From Acidobacteriota bacterium (GTDB lineage Bacteria; Acidobacteriota; Thermoanaerobaculia; Gp7-AA8; JAHWKK01), in assembly GCA_019347945.1 (NCBI GenBank), contig JAHWKK010000022.1:1-64000 (forward strand): 64,000 nt of DNA, given 5' to 3'. The translations under genes were made by a program, and so were the position numbers. The number at the start of each line of letters is the position of its first letter. The stretch's first letter is position 1. This document shows, piece by piece, positions 1 through 62,735 of the stretch. The notes beneath the pieces were generated by a model. That model worked only from the letters and a program-made list of their open reading frames with translations, had not been told where the DNA came from and did not search any database.

Positions 1-194
1 CTCCCTCCCCCACCCCCCCCCCCCCCCCTCTTCCCCCCCGCTCCCCCCCCCCGCCCGGGCCACCCCCCCGCCGGTCCGCCGGGGGCGCTGCGTTCGTCGC
101 CCGCACCCCCCCCCTCTTACCCCCCCTCCACACCCCCCCCCCCATCCTACTCCCCCCCCACCCCCCCCGACCCCGCCCTCTTCGCGGGTCATGT
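1..194. other. C-rich low-complexity contig end
   Basis: This stretch consists almost entirely of C runs with scattered A, T and G, unlike the balanced high-GC coding sequence that follows. No gene, terminator or ordered tandem unit can be recognised in it. The downstream antitoxin frame loses its normal N-terminus exactly here, which suggests that the bases are wrong and not that this is a natural element. The likely origin is a homopolymer sequencing or assembly artefact at a contig edge. Confidence 0.75.
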
Positions 195-6303: not shown

Positions 6304-7773
<1,470 letters not shown>

Positions 7774-8003
7774 AAGCAGGGGGTCAGGGATCAGGGATCA
7801 GGGGTCAGCGCATATCCGGCACGGCCGGCTCGGCCAATCCAGTACGTAGGTTCGATTTCCGGGACAGGCGCGTGGTCCAACGTCGTGCCCGACCGCGACG
7901 GCGTCATTGCCCGCGTTGCGCGTGGAGAAACAGGCCCACGTAAAAGACGCTCCTAGGTTGTCATCCCGGGCGTGCGCTGATCCCTGATCCCTGATCCCTC
8001 TGA
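7774..8003. repeat. Repeat-bounded cassette A (GGGATCA heptamers)
   Basis: Between sufB and the symporter, the left side (7784-7811) carries about four heptamers of the type GGGATCA, ending in CAGCGC. The right side (7974-8003) carries the reverse complement (GCGCTGATCCC, then TGATCCC units). The two arms match over about 26 bases with one or two mismatches and enclose about 160 bases with no evident gene. The left arm starts right after the sufB stop codon (TAG then AAGCAGG). The interior contains GTCATCCCGGGCG next to the right arm, reminiscent of the GTCATCCTGAGC box in cassette B. Confidence 0.85.
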
Positions 8004-9925: not shown

Positions 9926-10523
9926 GGGCGGGTTGGAGGTTGGAGGTTGGAGGTACACGACTCGCGAGATCAAACACTCGTCATCCTGAGCAAGTACACC
10001 GGGGCCAAAAGGCCTCGTGGGATCGGAGATGAACCCCGGAAATGTGACCCTGGCGCGGAGCGCTGGTTCCGTGAGGCCGGGCACGGGCGCGGGCACGGGC
10101 ACGGGAAAGACCTCGCGAACGGATGTTTCATTAGGCGCAAGTGACCGGTGCCTTGCGCCGGTGAAACGGAAATGACACCCGTGAGTGCAGAAACAACCGC
10201 ACTCGCGTACTCAAACCGACGTCATCCTGAGCGGGCGGTCGGGCGGGCAGGCGAAGGACCTCGCAGGTTGGGACATCAGCCCAAGCGAGGCGCTGCAAGT
10301 GGGTCGAAATCCAACAATTCGTGGTCGTTTCATCCTGAGCCGCCGAAGGACGTCGAAGGATCTGGGGGAGGGTCCGTGAGTCAACGTGCCCGCGCCTGAA
10401 GCTTTGATTCATGATCCCCGCCCAGATTCTTCGCCCGTGCTGCGCCGGGCTCAGAATGACGTGGGTTAGTATCCCGAGCCCCGAGCCCCAAACCTCCAAC
10501 TTCAAACCTCCAACCTCCAACCT
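9926..10523. repeat. Repeat-bounded cassette B (GGTTGGA heptamers)
   Basis: This fills the 600 bases between the convergent SET-domain and enolase genes. The left array (9931-9954) is three GGTTGGA units plus GGT. The right array (10490-10523) is the reverse complement (ACCTCCA type) and begins eight bases past the enolase stop. Inside are several GTCATCCTGAGC-like boxes (about 9979, 10221 and 10330, and one inverted near 10450), a palindrome around GACCGGTGCCTTGCGCCGGT (10143-10162), a short GGGCAC tandem (about 10078-10103) and the 90-bp module also found in cassettes E and G. No convincing coding sequence is present. Confidence 0.88.
10210..10298 (+). repeat. Dispersed 90-bp module, copy 1
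   Basis: This block runs from ACTCAAACCGACGTCATCC through GGTTGGGACATCAGCCCAAG to GCGCTGCAA. It recurs inverted at 52915-53005 and directly at 62570-62660 with about 85-90 percent identity by eye. It contains the C-G-G-G-C-G-G-T-C-G-G-G-C-G-G-G-C-A tract shared by all three copies. It is always inside a heptamer-bounded cassette. Confidence 0.85.
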
Positions 10524-10528
10524 GTTTT

Positions 10529-11824
<1,296 letters not shown>

Positions 11825-11830
11825 CTAACT

Positions 11831-12026
11831 GAAGAGTGAAGGGTGAAGAGTGAAGAGTGAAAGAGAAGAGTGAAGAGTGAAGGGTGAAGAGTGAAGGGGT
11901 GGAAAAAGGCGATGCCTGCCTCCTCTCATCCTTTTTCTTTTCACACTTCGGTCTTACTTCTTAACTGGAAAAGGATCAACCTTGGTTGAGCCGTTTTCAC
12001 TCTTCACTCTTCACCCTTCACTCTTC
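11831..12026. repeat. Repeat-bounded cassette C (GAAGAGT heptamers)
   Basis: It lies between the divergent enolase and MATE genes. The left array (11831-11897) has about nine GAAGAGT/GAAGGGT heptamers interrupted by an AAGA insertion. The right array (11994-12026) holds the reverse complement (TTCACTC/TTCACCC units). The enclosed 95 bases are AT-richer than the surroundings and contain AACCTTGGTT and runs of T, so promoter elements for either gene could sit here. Unlike the other cassettes, both arrays face start codons, not stop codons. Confidence 0.85.
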
Positions 12027-12046
12027 TCCCGTAGAATGCGCGGCTC

Positions 12047-19043: not shown

Positions 19044-19286
19044 GTGTCACTCATATGGTTTCTTCTGATCGGATTGGCCGCCGGGTTCCTCGCGAACCTC
19101 GTCATGAAATCGGGCCTCGGGCTCCTCGGCGATCTGATCGTCGGGGTCGTCGGAGCCATTCTCGGAGGATGGCTCTTCGGCCAGCTCGGCATCAGCGCGG
19201 GAGGAGGGTTGTTCGGCGCGCTCGTCACGGCGTTCGTCGGCGCCGTCGTCCTGCTTCTCATCATCCGGGTGATCAAGCGAGCGTAG
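19044..19286 (+). CDS. GlsB/YeaQ/YmgE-family small membrane protein
   Basis: An 80-residue, glycine-rich hydrophobic protein with three membrane helices, matching the YeaQ/YmgE (transglycosylase-associated) family: M-S-L-I-W-F-L-L-I-G-L-A-A-G-F-L-A, then G-D-L-I-V-G-V-V-G-A-I-L-G-G-W-L-F and a C-terminal V-L-L-L-I-I-R-V-I-K-R. Members are stress-associated inner-membrane proteins of unknown mechanism. The GTG start follows AAGGAGGGC eight bases upstream, a strong ribosome site. The TAG stop is followed, without a single spacer base, by the heptamer array of cassette D. It converges on polA. Confidence 0.9.
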   Translation: MSLIWFLLIGLAAGFLANLVMKSGLGLLGDLIVGVVGAILGGWLFGQLGISAGGGLFGALVTAFVGAVVLLLIIRVIKRA

Positions 19287-19655
19287 AGGCAGGAATCAGG
19301 ATCCAGGAGGCAGGATCCAGGAGGCAGGATCCAGGAGACAGGATCCAGGAGACAGGATCCAAGAGGCAGGAACCAGGATCCAGGAGCCTCAGTGTTCCGT
19401 GGCTTCCGACCCGGATGTTTGCTCGCTCCGTAATGAGCTTGGATCCGAACGCCAGTAGTGATTCCGGGTGACCGCCGGAATCCTGCTTCGTCGGTCGATT
19501 GTGAGAGTGTCTGGATCCGCGCATCCAAGAACCAAATCGCCGACTCCTCGATCCACTTGCGGCTGGTGTTTGCTGGCTCCTGATTCATGATTCCTGATTC
19601 CTGGCTCCTGGCTCCTGGCTCCTGATTCCTGGCTCCTGGCTCCTGGATCCTGATT
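19287..19655. repeat. Repeat-bounded cassette D (CAGGANN heptamers)
   Basis: It fills the whole 369 bases between the stop codons of the convergent YeaQ-like and polA genes. The left array (19287-19387) holds fourteen heptamers of consensus CAGGANN (CAGGATC alternating with CAGGAGG or CAGGAGA). The right array (about 19575-19655) holds eleven or twelve reverse-complement units (GCTCCTG, ATTCCTG). Both arrays abut their neighbouring stop codons with no spacer. The central ~190 bases contain no clear gene or hairpin and differ from the interiors of B, E and G. Confidence 0.9.
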
Positions 19656-22274
19656 CTACTGCTTGGCCTCGAACCAGCTTCGGCCCCAGCGCGCCTCCAC
19701 CGAGAGGGGAACCGAGAGCGTCGCGACCGATTCCATCACCCTTGTGATGTCTTTCTCGATCGCGCCGAGCTCCTCTTCCGGGACCTCGAAGACGATTTCG
19801 TCGTGGACGGTCAGCAGCATCCGGGTTCTGCTCGATGATTTTTGAAGGTGCTCGTCGAGACGGATCATTGCAATTTTGAGGATGTCGGCCGCACTTCCCT
19901 GAATCGGCGCGTTGGTCGCCATTCGCTCGGCGTTGGAGCGGACGGTGAATGAGCGATTCCGGATTTCCGGAATGTAGCGAACGCGTCCGAACATCGTCGT
20001 GACCTTCCCGGTACTGCGCGCCTCCTCGAGAGTCGCGTCGAGCATCGTTCTGATTTTCGGATAGCGGTCGAAATAGGCCTGGACGAATGCCTTCGCTTCG
20101 CTCGTCGGGATTCCGAGCTCGTTTCCGACGCGGAATGCCGACATGCCGTAAAGAACGCCGAAGTTGATCGTCTTAGCCGCTCTTCGCTGGTCGGAATTCA
20201 CGAGCCGTTCGTCGATTCCGAACATTCTCGCCGCGGTACGCCTGTGGATGTCGATGTCTCCACGGAAGGCGTCGATCATGTCCTCGTCGCCCGACATGTG
20301 GGCGGCCAGCCGGAGCTCGATCTGCGAGTAGTCGGCTGACATGATCACGTGACCCTCTTCCGCGACGAAAGCCTTTCGAATCTCGCGGCCGAGCTCGGTA
20401 CGTATCGGAATGTTCTGCAGGTTCGGCTCGGAAGAAGAGAGGCGTCCGGTCGCGGCTACGGCCTGATTGAAGGTCGTCCGCAGGCGACCATCGGGTCCGA
20501 TCATGCCGGGAAAGGCTTCGATGTAAGTCGACTTCAGCTTGTGAAGCTCCCGATGCTCGAGGATAAGGGCCGGAATCGGATAGCCACGCGCGGCGAGCTC
20601 CTCGAGGACTTCGACCGCAGTCGAATATCCCTTGGTCTTCCTCGTCTTCCTGATGATCGGGTAACCGAGTTTTTCGAACAGGATGGAGCCGAGCTGCGAG
20701 GGACTGTTGATGTTGAATTCCTCACCGGCCTCTCCGTAAATGCGTTCCTCGAGCTCGTCGAGGCGTTTTGAAAACCGCTTCGACATCTCCGAAAGAAAGT
20801 CGACGTCGACCCGGATACCAGCGGTTTCCATCCGTTGAAGTACCGGCACGAGAGGTTTCTCGATTGTTTCGTAGACGGATCGGAGGCTCGGGTCGTTTTC
20901 GAGGTCGCCATTTAGAGAACGGAAGAGCTCGAGCGTCGATTCGGCACGATCCGCAGCTGCCCGGACTCCGGACTCGGAGCCGTCCCCACCGAGCTCGAGC
21001 TGCGGCGAATCGGCGGGGATCTCGATCAGGTCGCGAACCAGCTTTTCGCGGACGATCGATTCCAGCTCATGACCGTATTGCCCCGGTCGGAGAACGTAGG
21101 AGATGAGCATCGTGTCCTCGAAATCGGCTGGAAGGCTCCAGCCGGCTTTGGCCATCAGATGGAACGCCGATTTGATGTTGTGTGCGATGAAACGCTTCCC
21201 GGATTCGAAAAGTGAGGAAAGCGCTTTTCCCATCCCCTCAGCGCCGGCATTCACCACGAGCGCCTGGTCCCGATCGGAGGAGAAGGCGACGATCCGCGGT
21301 TCTCCCGTCGGACTGCCCGAGACATGAATGGCGAGCTCTTTCTCTCCGGCCGTCCGCTCTCCCAGTTCCTCGGGTGACTCGATGATCACTGGCGTCCAGT
21401 CGAGCGTCCGGTCGGGCATGGTCTCCTGCATGAGCGACTGGAACTCGCAGCGACGAAACAGCTCGTGAAGTTTCCGATTGTCCGGCTCCGTGAGAGCCAG
21501 CGAGTCGAGATCGATGGAGGGCTCGAGGTCACAACGGAGCGTCACGAGATCCTTCGAGAGTAAAGCGATCTCCCGGTGCTCCTCGAGTTTCTTCCGATGA
21601 GACTTTTTTCCGACGGCGTCGAGGTTGGCGTAGATCGCCTCGAGCGAGCCGTGTTCGCGGATGAGATCCTTTGCCCCCTTTTCCCCGATGCCGGGAATTC
21701 CGGGCACGCCGTCGATCGAATCTCCCTGGATCGCCATCACGTCGACGACTTTCTCAGGGGGAAGCCCGAACGACTCCTCGACTGCGTCGGCATCGAGCAT
21801 TTTTTCCCGGCCGGTGTGGTAAACGGAGATCCCGTCGCCGACGAGCTGAAAGAAGTCCTTGTCTGATGTCGCGATGACGACCTCATAGCCGGAGTCACGG
21901 GCTCTGCAGGCGAGCGAGCCGAGAAGATCATCGGCCTCCACTCCGTCCTGCGAAACGACCCTGATGCGGTAGCCCTCGAGGAGCTCGAGCACGAGCGGCA
22001 GCTGAATGCTGAGGTCATCCGGCATCGGCTTGCGATCCGCCTTGTACTCCGGATAGATCTCGTGACGGAAGGTGCGGGCCGGCCGGTCGAACGACACCGC
22101 TATGGCATCCGGCTTGTGCTCCCGAAGGAGTTTCCTCAACATCTGGATGAAGCCATAGAGCGCGTTGGTGGCGAGCCCGTCCGAGGTCGTGAGGCCTCGG
22201 ATTGCGTAGTACGACCGGTAGAAATTGTTCGAGCCGTCGATCAGGTAGAGCTTCTTTCGTTTCTTTTTCACCAT
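19656..22274 (-). CDS. polA: DNA polymerase I, proofreading residues not visible
   Basis: An 872-residue PolA for Okazaki-fragment processing and repair. Domains in order: 5'-3' exonuclease (Y-L-I-D-G-S-N-N-F-Y-R-S, helix-hairpin-helix V-P-G-I-P-G-I-G), a degenerate 3'-5' exonuclease region (about 310-500) and the family A polymerase with motif A S-A-D-Y-S-Q-I-E-L-R, motif B R-R-A-A-K-T-I-N-F-G-V-L-Y-G and motif C V-H-D-E-I-V-F-E. In the middle domain the usual D-x-E of Exo I is replaced by A-I-H-V-S-G, and the Exo II aspartate position reads H-N-I-K-S-A-F. Proofreading is therefore probably lost, as in Thermus and Bacillus Pol I. The start at 22274 (M-V-K-K-K-R-K-K) gives the normal N-terminus. 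The CoA transferase gene ends 5 bases upstream. Confidence 0.96.
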   Translation of the reverse strand: MVKKKRKKLYLIDGSNNFYRSYYAIRGLTTSDGLATNALYGFIQMLRKLLREHKPDAIAVSFDRPARTFRHEIYPEYKADRKPMPDDLSIQLPLVLELLEGYRIRVVSQDGVEADDLLGSLACRARDSGYEVVIATSDKDFFQLVGDGISVYHTGREKMLDADAVEESFGLPPEKVVDVMAIQGDSIDGVPGIPGIGEKGAKDLIREHGSLEAIYANLDAVGKKSHRKKLEEHREIALLSKDLVTLRCDLEPSIDLDSLALTEPDNRKLHELFRRCEFQSLMQETMPDRTLDWTPVIIESPEELGERTAGEKELAIHVSGSPTGEPRIVAFSSDRDQALVVNAGAEGMGKALSSLFESGKRFIAHNIKSAFHLMAKAGWSLPADFEDTMLISYVLRPGQYGHELESIVREKLVRDLIEIPADSPQLELGGDGSESGVRAAADRAESTLELFRSLNGDLENDPSLRSVYETIEKPLVPVLQRMETAGIRVDVDFLSEMSKRFSKRLDELEERIYGEAGEEFNINSPSQLGSILFEKLGYPIIRKTRKTKGYSTAVEVLEELAARGYPIPALILEHRELHKLKSTYIEAFPGMIGPDGRLRTTFNQAVAATGRLSSSEPNLQNIPIRTELGREIRKAFVAEEGHVIMSADYSQIELRLAAHMSGDEDMIDAFRGDIDIHRRTAARMFGIDERLVNSDQRRAAKTINFGVLYGMSAFRVGNELGIPTSEAKAFVQAYFDRYPKIRTMLDATLEEARSTGKVTTMFGRVRYIPEIRNRSFTVRSNAERMATNAPIQGSAADILKIAMIRLDEHLQKSSSRTRMLLTVHDEIVFEVPEEELGAIEKDITRVMESVATLSVPLSVEARWGRSWFEAKQ

Positions 22275-51820: not shown

Positions 51821-52758
51821 CCGAAAGGGTGCGGACCGGTGTGGTCGGAGTCGGCTACCTCGGAGGGCTTCATACACGCGTTCTCACGGAGATACCGGAG
51901 GTCGAGCTCGTCGGGTTCGTCGAACCGGATGATCGGCGCGCCGGGGAGATCGGGGAGAAGTTCGGCCTGCAGCGATTCGATTCGGTTGCGGCGATTGCCC
52001 CCGAGATCGAGGCATGCGTCGTCGCGACTCCGACGGTCGAACATCACCGCGTTTCGGTCGAGCTGCTCGAGGCGGGCGTCGACGTGATGATCGAAAAACC
52101 GATCACCGCAAGCCTCGAGGAGGCGAACGAGCTGATCGGAATCGCCGAATCGAACGGCCGGCTCATTCAGGTCGGTCACGTCGAGCGATACAACCCGGCG
52201 ATCGTTGCCGCCGCACCCGCCGTCAGCGAGCCCCGATACGTCGAAGCGCAGCGGATCGGCGTTTTTTCGGCACGCTCTCTCGACATCGACGTCCTTCTCG
52301 ATCTGATGATCCACGACATCCATCTCGTCTATTCGCTCATCGGCAAGCCGGTCGTCGAGATCAGGGCGATCGGGATCCCGGTTCTGACCGACAGAGTCGA
52401 CATGGCGAACGTCCGGCTCGAAATGGAGGGAGGCGCGGTCGCCAACCTCGTCGCCAGCCGTGTCGCCAACGACAAGATGAGGAAGTTCAGAATCTTCGGC
52501 AAGGATTCCTATGTGTCGGTCGACACGAAGGACCAGGACGCTCGCGGTTACAGGCTCCTGCGCGATGGGGACTCGAAAACGGTCGAGGTTCTCAACCTCG
52601 AGGTCGAGCGGAAGGAGCCGCTCAGGGCAGAGCTGGATGCGTTCATCGACTGCGTGCGCTCGCGCGAGAAGCCGCTCGTCGACGGACGGGATGGGATGGC
52701 CGCCCTCGAGCTCGCGCTCAGAATCGGTGAGGAGATCGAGCGTACGACGCCTGTTTAG
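51817..52758 (+). CDS. Gfo/Idh/MocA-family oxidoreductase, lipid A operon
   Basis: A 313-residue NAD(P)-dependent sugar dehydrogenase. The Rossmann motif is G-V-V-G-V-G-Y-L-G near the N-terminus, followed by E-K-P-I-T-A in the conserved active-site loop and a beta-rich C-terminal half with G-H-V-E-R-Y-N-P-A and D-L-M-I-H-D-I-H. Such genes are often found after lpxA. In some bacteria a related enzyme (GnnA) oxidises UDP-GlcNAc so that an aminotransferase can make the 2,3-diamino sugar of lipid A; no such aminotransferase gene adjoins it, so the substrate is open. The ATG overlaps the lpxA stop (ATGA), and the TAG stop is immediately followed by the heptamer array of cassette E. Confidence 0.88.
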   Translation: MTERVRTGVVGVGYLGGLHTRVLTEIPEVELVGFVEPDDRRAGEIGEKFGLQRFDSVAAIAPEIEACVVATPTVEHHRVSVELLEAGVDVMIEKPITASLEEANELIGIAESNGRLIQVGHVERYNPAIVAAAPAVSEPRYVEAQRIGVFSARSLDIDVLLDLMIHDIHLVYSLIGKPVVEIRAIGIPVLTDRVDMANVRLEMEGGAVANLVASRVANDKMRKFRIFGKDSYVSVDTKDQDARGYRLLRDGDSKTVEVLNLEVERKEPLRAELDAFIDCVRSREKPLVDGRDGMAALELALRIGEEIERTTPV

Positions 52759-53179
52759 AAGCAGGAATCAGGAATCAGGAGTCAGGAATCAGGGATCATG
52801 AATCAACTCTCAGCGATGGCGAAACCCTGATTCACGAGCCTGCCGCCAGATCCTTCGCCGTCCTCCGGCGGCTCCTAATGAAACGGCCACGAAATTTTTT
52901 GGACTTTGACCCTTTTGCGGCGCTTCGCTTGGGCTGATGTCCCAACCTGCAAGGTCCCTCGCTTGCCCACCCGACCGCCCGCTCGGGACGACGTCGGTTT
53001 GAGTATGGGGTGCGGAGTTTTGCGGGATCCGGTTTTCATTCCCGCTTCACCGGCGCAACGCGCCGGTCAATTGCTCAGGATGACGAGTGATCCATCTCCC
53101 ACGTTTTCACATTCTAAAATTTCTGGTTCCTGCTTCCTGGTTCCTGCCCCCTGATCCCTGATCCCTAATCCCTGCTTCT
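52759..53179. repeat. Repeat-bounded cassette E (CAGGAAT / TGATCCC heptamers)
   Basis: It lies between the convergent oxidoreductase and YbdG-like genes. The left array (52759-52806) starts at the base after the TAG stop: AAGCAGG, then CAGGAAT-type heptamers. The right array (about 53122-53179) holds reverse-complement units (TGGTTCC, TGATCCC) and ends in CCTGCTTCT. The interior is homologous, in reverse orientation, to the interior of cassette B over several hundred bases, including the 90-bp module (52915-53005), the GCGCCGG palindrome near 53050-53068 and an inverted GTCATCCTGAGC box near 53071-53083. Confidence 0.9.
52915..53005 (-). repeat. Dispersed 90-bp module, copy 2 (inverted)
   Basis: This is the reverse complement of the block at 10210-10298: ATACTCAAACCGACGTCGTC, then the G-rich tract, GGTTGGGACATCAGCCCAAG and GCGCCGCAA on the minus strand. 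Flanking sequence on both sides also matches cassette B, so the shared element in these two cassettes is longer than in cassette G. Confidence 0.85.
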
Positions 53180-54405
53180 CTCATCCTCTCGAAATCGTGA
53201 CCCGTCGGATTCTGGAAAACGCGGAGGCCGAATTCGGGCAGGATCGCGAGAAGGTGATCGAAGACGTCCGCCTGGATCGCTTCGTACTCCGCCCACGCGG
53301 TGGTCTTCGTGAAGACGTAGATCTCGAGAGGCAGACCATCGGAGCCCGGCTCGAGATGCCGGACCAGAAAGGTCATCGCGGAATGAACGTCGGGACGCTG
53401 CTGAAGATACTTGACGACATACGCGCGGAAAGTGCCGACATTCGTGAGGCGCCGCGCATTGGCGACGAGATCGGACTCGGTCAGGACCTTTTTATTGTAC
53501 TCCTCGAGCTCCGATCGCTTTCCTGCGATGTAGTCGCGCAGGAGGACGAAGCGTTCGAATCGCTCGATCTCGGCCTGATCGAGGAACCGGATCGAGCGCA
53601 TGTCGATGTGGATCGGACGCTTGATCCGCCGGCCGCCCGACTCCTGCATGCCGCGCCAGTTGCGGAACGACTCGTCGATCAGCTTGTAAGTCGGGATCGT
53701 CGTGATCGTCTTGTCCCAGTTCTGAACCTTGACCGTGTGGAGCGCGATGTCGATGACGTCGCCATCCGCGCCGTACTTCGGCATCTCGATCCAGTCGCCG
53801 ATCCGGACCATGTCGTTCGATGCGATCTGGATGCTGGCGACCAGTGAAAGGATCGTGTCGCGGAAGATCAGAAGAACGACCGCCGTCATCGCTCCGATTC
53901 CGGTGAGCAGATAGAGCGGCGAGCGATCGAGCACCAGCGCAATCGCGAACACGACTGCCATGATGAAGAGAAAGATCTTGGCGATCTGAAGGTAACCTTT
54001 GATTGGCCGCCCTCGTGACACCGGATACGACGAGTAGACCTCGTTGGTGGCGGTCAGGATCGCGCTGATCAGCATGACCACGACGAAGACCATCGCCGCC
54101 AGCATGACGTTGAGCAGACGGTCGATGGCCTCCGGGTCGATGCCCGGAAGCAACGGCAGTCCGAAGTGCAGAACGACCAGCGGCATCAGAGCTGCCGCAC
54201 GCCGCAGGACCTTCGGCTGGAGGAGCACGTCGTCCCAGCTGAATCGAGAGTTCCGGACCATGCTGGTCACGGCGCGGGTCAGGTACCTCCGGACGACGAA
54301 GTAACTGAGAGCCGCGGCGAGCAGCAGACTCGAGGTTCCGAGGAGCGTCGCCAGCGCAGGATGAGCCTCCAGCCACGCTGCGATGCGAGTCAGCGACTCA
54401 TTCAT
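53107..54405 (-). CDS. YbdG-like mechanosensitive channel (MscS family)
   Basis: A 432-residue MscS-superfamily protein with about five N-terminal helices, then the pore-like helix (L-T-G-I-G-A-M-T-A-V-V-L-L-I-F-R-D-T-I-L-S-L-V) and the beta domain V-R-I-G-D-W-I-E-M-P. The sequence pattern and the ending F-Q-N-P-T-G-H-D fit the YbdG group, osmotic-shock channels of the inner membrane. After E-R-M the reading frame runs into cassette E: the last ~25 residues (R-E-A-G-I-R-D-Q-G onward) are encoded by the heptamer array. The start at 54405 overlaps the metX stop by eight bases. Confidence 0.9.
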   Translation of the reverse strand: MNESLTRIAAWLEAHPALATLLGTSSLLLAAALSYFVVRRYLTRAVTSMVRNSRFSWDDVLLQPKVLRRAAALMPLVVLHFGLPLLPGIDPEAIDRLLNVMLAAMVFVVVMLISAILTATNEVYSSYPVSRGRPIKGYLQIAKIFLFIMAVVFAIALVLDRSPLYLLTGIGAMTAVVLLIFRDTILSLVASIQIASNDMVRIGDWIEMPKYGADGDVIDIALHTVKVQNWDKTITTIPTYKLIDESFRNWRGMQESGGRRIKRPIHIDMRSIRFLDQAEIERFERFVLLRDYIAGKRSELEEYNKKVLTESDLVANARRLTNVGTFRAYVVKYLQQRPDVHSAMTFLVRHLEPGSDGLPLEIYVFTKTTAWAEYEAIQADVFDHLLAILPEFGLRVFQNPTGHDFERMREAGIRDQGSGGRNQEAGTRNFRM

Positions 54406-59397: not shown

Positions 59398-60506
59398 AAG
59401 TCGGAATCACCTGCTATCCCACCTACGGGGGTTCGGGTGTCGTCGCCACCGAGCTCGGCATCGCCCTCGGGGACCTCGGGCACGAGGTCCACTTCATCAG
59501 CTATGCGTGGCCGTCGCGCCTGAGCGTGCTTCACGAACATGTGCGATTTCACGAGGTCACGGTGACGCCGTATCCGCTGTTCGACAGCTACCCGCCGTAT
59601 ACGCTGGCGCTTGCCACGAAAATGGCGGAGGTCGCCCGCTACGAGGGACTCGACGTTCTCCATGTTCACTACGCGATTCCTCACGCGATCAGCGGCTTTC
59701 TCGCCAAGCAGATTCTCGGAAACGACGATCTCAAGCTGGTGACGACGCTGCACGGGACCGACATCACGCTGGTCGGACGAGACGCGAGCTACCTCCCGAT
59801 CACTGAATTCGGGATCAACGCCTCCGACGGAGTCACGGCCGTGTCGAACTGGCTCCGCGATGAGACGAACGCGTATTTCGATATCAGGAAGGAGATCGCG
59901 GTGATCCCGAACTTCGTGGACCCGAAGCGTTTTCAGAATGGAGGCGACTGCGCCGTCCGCAGCTGGATTACCGAGGGGGAGCGGCTGATCGGCCACGCTT
60001 CGAACTTCCGTCCCGTCAAACGCGTCCTCGACATCCTCGAGGCTTTCGAGATCATCCTGAAGCGGGTTCCTTCGCGACTGCTCATGATCGGGGATGGTCC
60101 CGACCGCTCCCGTGCTGAATCATTTGCACGCGAGCATGGCCTTGGCGACCACGTGATCTTTCTCGGGAATGTCCCCAACATCGAAGAGCTCATCGGGGGG
60201 TGCGACGTTTTTCTCCTTCCCTCGGAGACCGAGTCGTTCGGCATGGCGGCTCTCGAGGCGCTGGCCTCGGAGGTTCCGGTCGTCGCGACCCGGACCGGAG
60301 GGCTCCCCGAGGTGATCATCGAGGGAGAGGTCGGCTATCTGGTGGAGGTCGGCGATACGAAGGAGCTCGCGGAGCGGGCGATCTCGATTCTCGCCGACCC
60401 GGAGAAACGGAAAAAGATGGGCCGGGCAGCGCGCGATCACGCGATCACGACTTTCCACGTCGACCGAATCGTCCCGAAGTACCTCGACTTCTACGAGAAC
60501 GTGTAG
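59394..60506 (+). CDS. bshA: N-acetylglucosaminyl-malate synthase BshA
   Basis: A 370-residue GT4 glycosyltransferase joining UDP-GlcNAc and malate, the first step of bacillithiol synthesis. Family features are I-T-C-Y-P-T-Y-G-G-S-G-V-V-A-T-E-L, T-L-H-G-T-D-I-T, H-A-S-N-F-R-P-V-K and the nucleotide-sugar site E-S-F-G-M-A-A-L-E-A-L-A. A TTG start overlaps the bshB1 stop (TTGA). The TAG stop is followed at once by AAGCAGG and the heptamers of cassette F, so no further gene of the operon follows. All three bsh genes of the core pathway are present, in the order C-B1-A. Confidence 0.95.
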   Translation: MKVGITCYPTYGGSGVVATELGIALGDLGHEVHFISYAWPSRLSVLHEHVRFHEVTVTPYPLFDSYPPYTLALATKMAEVARYEGLDVLHVHYAIPHAISGFLAKQILGNDDLKLVTTLHGTDITLVGRDASYLPITEFGINASDGVTAVSNWLRDETNAYFDIRKEIAVIPNFVDPKRFQNGGDCAVRSWITEGERLIGHASNFRPVKRVLDILEAFEIILKRVPSRLLMIGDGPDRSRAESFAREHGLGDHVIFLGNVPNIEELIGGCDVFLLPSETESFGMAALEALASEVPVVATRTGGLPEVIIEGEVGYLVEVGDTKELAERAISILADPEKRKKMGRAARDHAITTFHVDRIVPKYLDFYENV

Positions 60507-60664
60507 AAGCAGGTTGGAGGTTGGAGGTTGGAGGTCGAAAGGGCTCGGACGGTCGCGAGTGACGACGTCGTGAGGTTCTGTTTCGTCTCTCAGTCCACGA
60601 CGTCCACATCGTCCACGACGTCCACATCGTCCACAACCTCAAACCTCCAACCTCCAACCTTCCA
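60507..60664. repeat. Repeat-bounded cassette F (TTGGAGG heptamers, plus a 9-bp tandem)
   Basis: The left array (60507-60534) begins after the bshA stop as AAGCAGG and three TTGGAGG units. The right array (60635-60664) is ACCTCAA/ACCTCCA reverse-complement units. Just before the right array is a second tandem repeat, five 9-base units CGTCCACGA/CGTCCACAT (about 60592-60635). The left-right unit is the same family as cassette B (GGTTGGA). The interior is only about 100 bases and lacks the module seen in B, E and G. Confidence 0.87.
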
Positions 60665-62424: not shown

Positions 62425-62440
62425 GGACAAAGCCTATAAG

Positions 62441-62735
62441 AAAAGAGTGAAGAGTGAAGGGTGAAGGGTGAAAAAAAGAGTGAAGAGTGAAGAGTGAAGA
62501 GTGAAAAAGAGAGACTCACCCCGCCCAGATTTCTTCGCCCGCGCTTCGCCGGGCCCGGACCGCTCGCGCATACTCACCTGACGTCATCCCGAGCGGGCGG
62601 TCGGGCGGGCAAGCGAGGGACCTCTCAGGTTGGGACATCAGGCCAAGCGAAGCGCTGGAAGGCGTCGCGTGCAAAGAACGAAGCTCGTGAGTCGACGGTG
62701 CCGGTGCCTCTCTTTCACTCTTCACTCTTCTTTTC
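62441..62735. repeat. Repeat-bounded cassette G (GAAGAGT heptamers)
   Basis: The left array (62441-62508) is a run of GAAGAGT/GAAGGGT units with A-rich interruptions; the right array (62710-62735) is the reverse complement (TTCACTC). The interior carries the third copy of the 90-bp module (62570-62660) and a second shared block, CCGCCCAGATTTCTTCGCCC (62521-62540), which also occurs near 10420 in cassette B. The left array lies just upstream of the amidohydrolase start. The right array overlaps the final codons of the DUF418 gene. Confidence 0.88.
62570..62660 (+). repeat. Dispersed 90-bp module, copy 3
   Basis: A third copy, in the same orientation as at 10210-10298: ATACTCACCTGACGTCATCC through GGTTGGGACATCAGGCCAAG to GCGCTGGAA. 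It is shorter on its flanks than copies 1 and 2, so the 90-bp module is the unit common to all. Confidence 0.83.

Follow-up and report, generated by a model that had tools for sequence, protein, structure and literature searches.

Arrays of heptamers close to genes have been on record for decades, with no explanation of their origin or function. The short tandemly repeated repetitive (STRR) heptamers of cyanobacteria are dispersed intergenic heptamer arrays and are alike by description to the repeats analyzed here, and eukaryotic foldback elements have long inverted repeats with arms of short tandem subrepeats. Closest to the present repeats among known systems are inverted pairs of GGGAATC heptamers, described from Xanthomonas and Nostoc (Rehm 2015, PMC4692102). 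In these genomes, GGGAATC or GGGGA(C/T)T heptamers are intergenic and often form convergent inverted pairs, the G-rich strand of the arrays lies downstream of stop codons on the coding strand and upstream of start codons on the non-coding strand, and the arrays are found within ~50 nt of an ORF, some of them overlapping stop codons (PMC4692102). Each of these genomes has one unit family, four G-tracts being preferred, and three heptanucleotides are mentioned for Calothrix (PMC4692102). In Beggiatoaceae, some TAACTGA arrays overlap upstream stop codons, which that study explains by the stops that the unit has in all frames (MacGregor 2015, PMC4679880). These sets are direct repeats of one unit (1 inverted of 170) located mostly near start codons, and both mobility and tolerance at protein ends were raised in that study (PMC4679880).

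Heptamer cassettes of the window and its genome

The stretch of DNA analyzed here comprises 64 kb and is referred to as the window. It contains seven hairpin cassettes (A to G) with differing units. Cassette D takes up the entire gap between a GlsB-like gene and polA, which converge and both stop at TAG, and was predicted to be foldable as a single long hairpin (z=-8.0). Its parts and the adjoining genes are as follows.

19044..19286, + strand: GlsB/YeaQ-like gene on the left side of cassette D (80 aa); the stop is probably the native end
19287..19385, + strand: cassette D left array, AGG followed by CAGGANN units (CAGGATC/CAGGAGG/CAGGAGA)
19386..19577, no strand: cassette D loop, unique sequence, ~190 nt
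19578..19655, - strand: cassette D right array, inverted, same CAGGANN unit family, running inward from the polA stop as AATCAGGATCCAGG
19656..22274, - strand: polA; position of the stop TAG native, with SWFEAKQ* where relatives have SWYDAKE*

The GlsB-like stop is located at 19284-19286 with AGGCAGGAATCAGGATCC directly 3' of it, and the polA stop at 19656-19658, again with its array sequence directly 3'. The first complete CAGG unit begins 3 nt past each stop. The preliminary description had both arrays touching the stops with no spacer, which holds only if the 3-nt lead-in is taken as array; the starts are 0-3 nt after the TAGs. Pfam PF04226 aligns to residues 32-79 of the 80 residues of the GlsB-like protein, reaching the profile end, and the model thus ending within one residue of the protein end suggests that this TAG is probably native. 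The remaining six cassettes are located as follows.

7771..7808, + strand: cassette A left end, sufB stop TAG, AAGCAGG and CAGGGAT array; stop position native (LEGSVG*)
7977..7999, - strand: cassette A right array, ending just upstream of the -10-like GATAAAGT
9931..9954, + strand: cassette B left GGTTGGA array, with a TGA stop 5 nt before it
10473..10523, - strand: cassette B right array, GGTTGGA units that follow an enolase-type stop TGA and AAAACAGG
11830..11898, + strand: cassette C left GAGTGAA array in a divergent gap, abutting TAGAAT
11996..12030, - strand: cassette C right GAGTGAA array, abutting GTAGAAT
52756..52805, + strand: cassette E left end, TAG, AAGCAGG and CAGGANN array, ending a GFO/IDH/MocA oxidoreductase; protein ~4-8 aa short
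53123..53174, - strand: cassette E right array, lying within an MscS-type gene (53107-54405) at its 3' end; encodes ...EAGIRDQGSGGRNQEAG...
60504..60535, + strand: cassette F left end, TAG of a bshA-like glycosyltransferase, AAGCAGG and GGTTGGA array; orthologous proteins are longer by 2-10 aa
60635..60660, - strand: cassette F right array (AACCTCC)
62443..62505, + strand: cassette G left GAGTGAA array; lies upstream of a start codon and abuts a TATAGG box

The MscS-type gene converging on cassette E has a C-terminal extension encoded by the right arm of E, a feature absent from the preliminary description. An Rfam search of the window returned tRNAs only. Further dispersed repeats were observed in the loops, including a GTCATCCTGAGC...GGCTCAGAATGACG family (window 9926-10528, 52759-53106, 62425-62721, and many loci elsewhere in the genome) and, in CCGGTTG cassettes, GCCCGCTGAAGCGGGC / CCCCCGGCTTCAGCCGGGGG hairpins. 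The very start of the contig, C22 (window 1-170), is a C-rich low-complexity stretch, possibly an assembly-end artefact.

Approximately 1.17 of the 3.72 Mb (~31%) of the window genome (G000) was examined, and genes were called with a home-made, simple codon-usage caller. The best named SufB matches indicate that the phylum is probably Acidobacteriota. Period 7 accounted for 57 arrays in 789 kb, vs 0-5 for each other period from 3 to 13, and only 9/114 arrays lay well inside called genes, the heptamers thus being concentrated in intergenic DNA. The unit families included CAGGGAT, CAGGANN, GAGTGAA, GGTTGGA, CCGGTTG, and GAGCGAC. The purine- or G-rich strand runs inward from gene ends, the G-rich strand being the coding strand next to stops and the non-coding strand next to starts. 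Among neighboring pairs, 20/31 have a 7-mer in common with the reverse complement of the partner and 2/31 in direct orientation; in a second genome, G005, all 31 adjacent pairs were inverted and of the same unit family, and none were direct. The arms of the cassettes are family-specific and the loops are locus-specific; comparison of loops with other loci gave scattered 12-mer matches only and was uninformative as to copies. At L182-L183 (G000 C4:32042-42591), CGAG-type heptamer pairs occur at intervals of 2.1-2.9 kb with near-identical flanks next to them, as though cassettes separated a tandem family of paralogous genes.

Occupied and empty junctions among relatives

G005 and G008 are syntenic and belong to the same genus. 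At the same threshold, 64 period-7 arrays were found in 400 kb of G005 vs 3 in 347 kb of G008, and of 109 syntenic junctions a cassette was present in 22 in G005 vs 4 in G008. Several of the G005 cassettes are located where G008 has an ATGA, GTGA, or TGATG overlap, and in G005 an intact stop and an intact start flank the cassette. Cassettes are therefore present or absent at the same gene junction between sister species, including junctions at which stop and start overlap, and a discrete non-coding insertion that is polymorphic between relatives, which is a trait of MITEs, is seen where G005 is occupied and G008 empty. At most sites the cassettes arose by insertion, not by local slippage.

The sufB-sufC gap is empty (2-20 nt) in seven relatives, and in G001, G007, G010, G015, and G017 it is filled by differing arrays of unrelated units, one of them an octamer. 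Since no heptamer cassette was found at the stop in the sufB junctions of 77 other bacteria, the trait at sufB looks clade-specific. In G005 and G006 (L083, L089), the same junction holds non-heptamer long hairpins (TGTCATTCCGAGCG... in G005). Octamer inverted arrays (GCTCATAG) are located beside heptamers at 175518, 214219, and 225942 of the concatenated G005 C41, and at 225942 the right arm ends in ATGAGCCT, which also begins the next gene.

Acquisition per junction at G005/G008 tandem junctions was 9/48 for gaps of <=10 nt vs 5/29 for longer gaps. With a per-junction rate independent of gap length, short gaps were occupied ~13 times more often per nucleotide (p=8e-6). This excess may mean that nearly all of each long gap is functional, or that insertion is attracted to junctions.

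Array edges, the shared outer end, and the source of stops

The outer edges on the stop side were <=10 nt from a stop codon or overlapped it in 36/49 cases in G000, compared with 6% expected for length-weighted insertion (p=4e-34) and 27% if array-free gaps count equally (p=3e-11). The corresponding count in G005 was 31/51 vs 27% (p=5e-7). Enrichment at stop codons genome-wide, which the preliminary description had made a condition of its case, is present at either expectation. On the start side, only 2/31 edges were <=10 nt from the start codon; 16/35 adjoined a -10-like TANNNT, a loose pattern on which the promoter inference depends, vs 8% of control upstream segments (p=3e-9). The array edges are equally sharp at these boxes, and a stop codon is one functional boundary among others; on both sides, arrays therefore reach as far as such a boundary.

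The explanation favored here, with moderate confidence, is that multi-copy insertion cassettes land in ORF junctions and are retained where neither gene is broken, so that contact with stops results from selection and needs no targeting. Each cassette would be a hairpin with inverted tandem arrays of one 7-mer family as arms and a locus-specific loop, and its retention only where both genes stay intact would leave the array ending at the nearest functional boundary, namely a stop codon at one edge and, at the opposite edge, a -10 box or start codon. This selection filter, combined with tiny gaps, would bring arrays into flush contact with stops. This contact is made sharper by two features. 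Cassettes of the CAGG type end in the common lead-in TAGAAGCAGG, whose TAG can coincide with or replace the native stop, and units containing TGA or TAG (GAGTGAA, TAGGGAT, GGATTGA) stop any frame entering the array; insertion in the last codons would therefore be tolerated, giving array-encoded ends such as KSEE*. A constant per-junction rate is not predicted by random insertion and selection unless most of each long gap is functional, and some attraction of insertion to junctions may be involved.

The ten bases TAGAAGCAGG, which the preliminary description had noted at the ends of cassettes A, E, and F, occur in exactly three copies in the window (7771, 52756, and 60504), all of them at stops of called genes. 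Their sharing is well beyond chance, with 0.05 copies expected in shuffles and 0/100 shuffles reaching 3. Genome-wide there are 12 copies vs 27 of the reversed control, so the 10-mer itself is not over-represented, and 10 of the 12 start a heptamer array, a significant count. In seven of these ten, the gene stops at the TAG; the other three are L001 (at a start codon), L009, and L012 (8 nt past TGA). Judged by position, TAGAAGCAGG is an outer end of CAGG- and GGTTGGA-type cassettes, because ten copies start arrays and three of them are located off stops. The proposed boundary motif containing TAG is consistent with these placements. The cassette end may join an existing TAG or may change a stop to TAG; conversion is possible because sufB and C2:47462 orthologues use all three stops.

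TAG made up 16/39 (41%) of array-followed stops vs 12% elsewhere, an enrichment of ~3-fold (p=6e-6, computed post hoc after the window pattern was seen). A count outside the window was made for that reason and gave 11/32 (p=0.001). This enrichment would be expected if insertion were site-directed by machinery that recognizes ORF junctions or stops, TAG especially, for example through microhomology between the cassette-end TAG and the stop. The constant per-junction rate whatever the gap length, and the independent, recurrent occupation of the sufB stop in several genera by differing units, are in line with such machinery as well. It is nevertheless unlikely, given that TGA and TAA stops are also array-flanked (23/39), that 3/10 array-bearing TAGAAGCAGG ends are off stops, that start-side edges are bounded as sharply at -10 boxes, and that among G005 gaps the divergent ones, with no stop present, are occupied in 5/14 cases and the convergent ones, with two stops, in 0/14. 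The suggestion that the element targets stop codons is not needed to explain these edges, and the cassettes probably do not specifically seek stop codons.

The comparison of C-termini proposed in the preliminary description was made with orthologues from the same order (proteins ~55-88% identical), sites in the window being compared at the protein level only. For polA, sufB, an acyl-CoA dehydrogenase, and the C2:47462 gene, the stop was where nearly all tested relatives have it; all of these genes but polA bear TAGAAGCAGG. The oxidoreductase at cassette E was ~4-8 residues short, and bshA at cassette F 2-10 residues short, vs 17 orthologues each. Unrelated genes flanked by GAGTGAA arrays have an array-encoded KSEE* end that replaces or follows the native end, and the G014 orthologue of the E oxidoreductase has a KSEG* end that is likewise array-encoded. 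With a stop triplet in the unit, the gene's stop was in phase with the unit in 8/19 cases in G000 and 4/13 in G005, vs 0/32 and 0/21 for units that have none. These mixed native and shifted C-termini show that stop supply by the cassette is real and confined to a minority of genes; the alternative in the preliminary description, that the element supplied the stop, is thus correct for E, F, and the KSEE* genes and incorrect for sufB, polA, acyl-CoA dehydrogenase, and C2:47462. The former genes show that a stop codon and the final residues can come from a repeat. As the general explanation, with genes that once ended elsewhere being cut or extended by the cassette end, stop supply would also account for the MscS extension at the right arm of E; the native ends just listed, and probably that of GlsB, make it distinctly improbable.

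Least probable is local growth, in which a small hairpin past the stop (e.g. an intrinsic terminator) expanded by 7-nt slippage with the arms templating each other: the position after stops, the unique loops, the resemblance of some empty sites to the unit (G008 GTGAGCTCATGAGC vs GCTCATAG arrays; TATAGCA vs TATAAAGCA), and, in G005, a slightly greater likeness between the two arms of one cassette than to those of other copies (p=0.015) agree with it, but unit families and the outer end TAGAAGCAGG recur at unrelated loci, the own-arm excess amounts to no more than 1-2 points and lacks significance in G000 (p=0.28), and nested cassettes of differing family exist (G005 275014). Concerted evolution of arms was set aside on the same own-arm values. 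The nested case (L214, G005 C41 concatenated 275014-275193) is a GAAGGCA hairpin in the loop of a GAACGCA hairpin, an insertion into an earlier cassette.

Spread of the cassettes and relation to known repeats

A profile search for reverse transcriptase (PF00078) gave no match in G000, and an RT-based origin was rejected for this genome in the absence of RVT_1. Y1 transposase (PF01797) matches numbered 8 in G000, 1 in G005, and 0 in G008. Three of the G000 matches were checked for flanking repeats, as in REP/RAYT, and had no adjacent array, and the Y1 transposase was set aside as mobilizer, its counts not clearly tracking the arrays and the three checked copies having no flanking array. No excess of direct repeats over shuffled pairs, as for a target-site duplication, was found at the edges of 35 cassettes in G005 and 25 in G000. 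ATGA occurs on both sides at three split ATGA/TGATG junctions, which could reflect selection for both codons. Spread by array copying, via template switching with microhomology at the ends, is suggested with low confidence.

Several features distinguish the cassettes from other repeats. They are unlike a simple MITE in that the loops are locus-specific while the arms are family-specific. Their resemblance to eukaryotic foldback elements lies in inverted tandem-repeat arms and would be one of working; no transposase was linked to the present cassettes. They resemble the TAACTGA arrays of Beggiatoaceae as intergenic heptamer arrays beside ORFs that overlap upstream stops, and are unlike them in being inverted and multi-unit. 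It is possible, though doubtful, that they represent junction-seeking insertion with no fixed terminal sequence and many unrelated heptamer families, which splits an overlapping stop and start while leaving both intact, each species having its own heptamer set. The clade offers occupied and empty junctions in sister species, several unit families, and cleanly separated overlapping codons, and the spread of the hairpins and their effects on coupled translation and protein C-termini become directly testable.

The likeness to the pairs of Xanthomonas and Nostoc covers intergenic heptamers, convergent inversion, the strand rule, closeness to an ORF, and overlap with some stops. The differences are that many unrelated units are present in one genome, most without GGG, that the outer end TAGAAGCAGG is shared, that the same site holds different units in different species, and that occupied and empty junctions are clean. 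By inspection of the sequences, the GGG of a GGGNATC unit able to form a G-quadruplex is absent from most units; CAGGATC, GAGTGAA, GGTTGGA, CCGGTTG, and GAGCGAC are without GGG, and only CAGGGAT/TAGGGAT has it. The present cassettes work like the pairs described by Rehm and vary from them in the number of unit families, the common end motif, and the clean empty sites.
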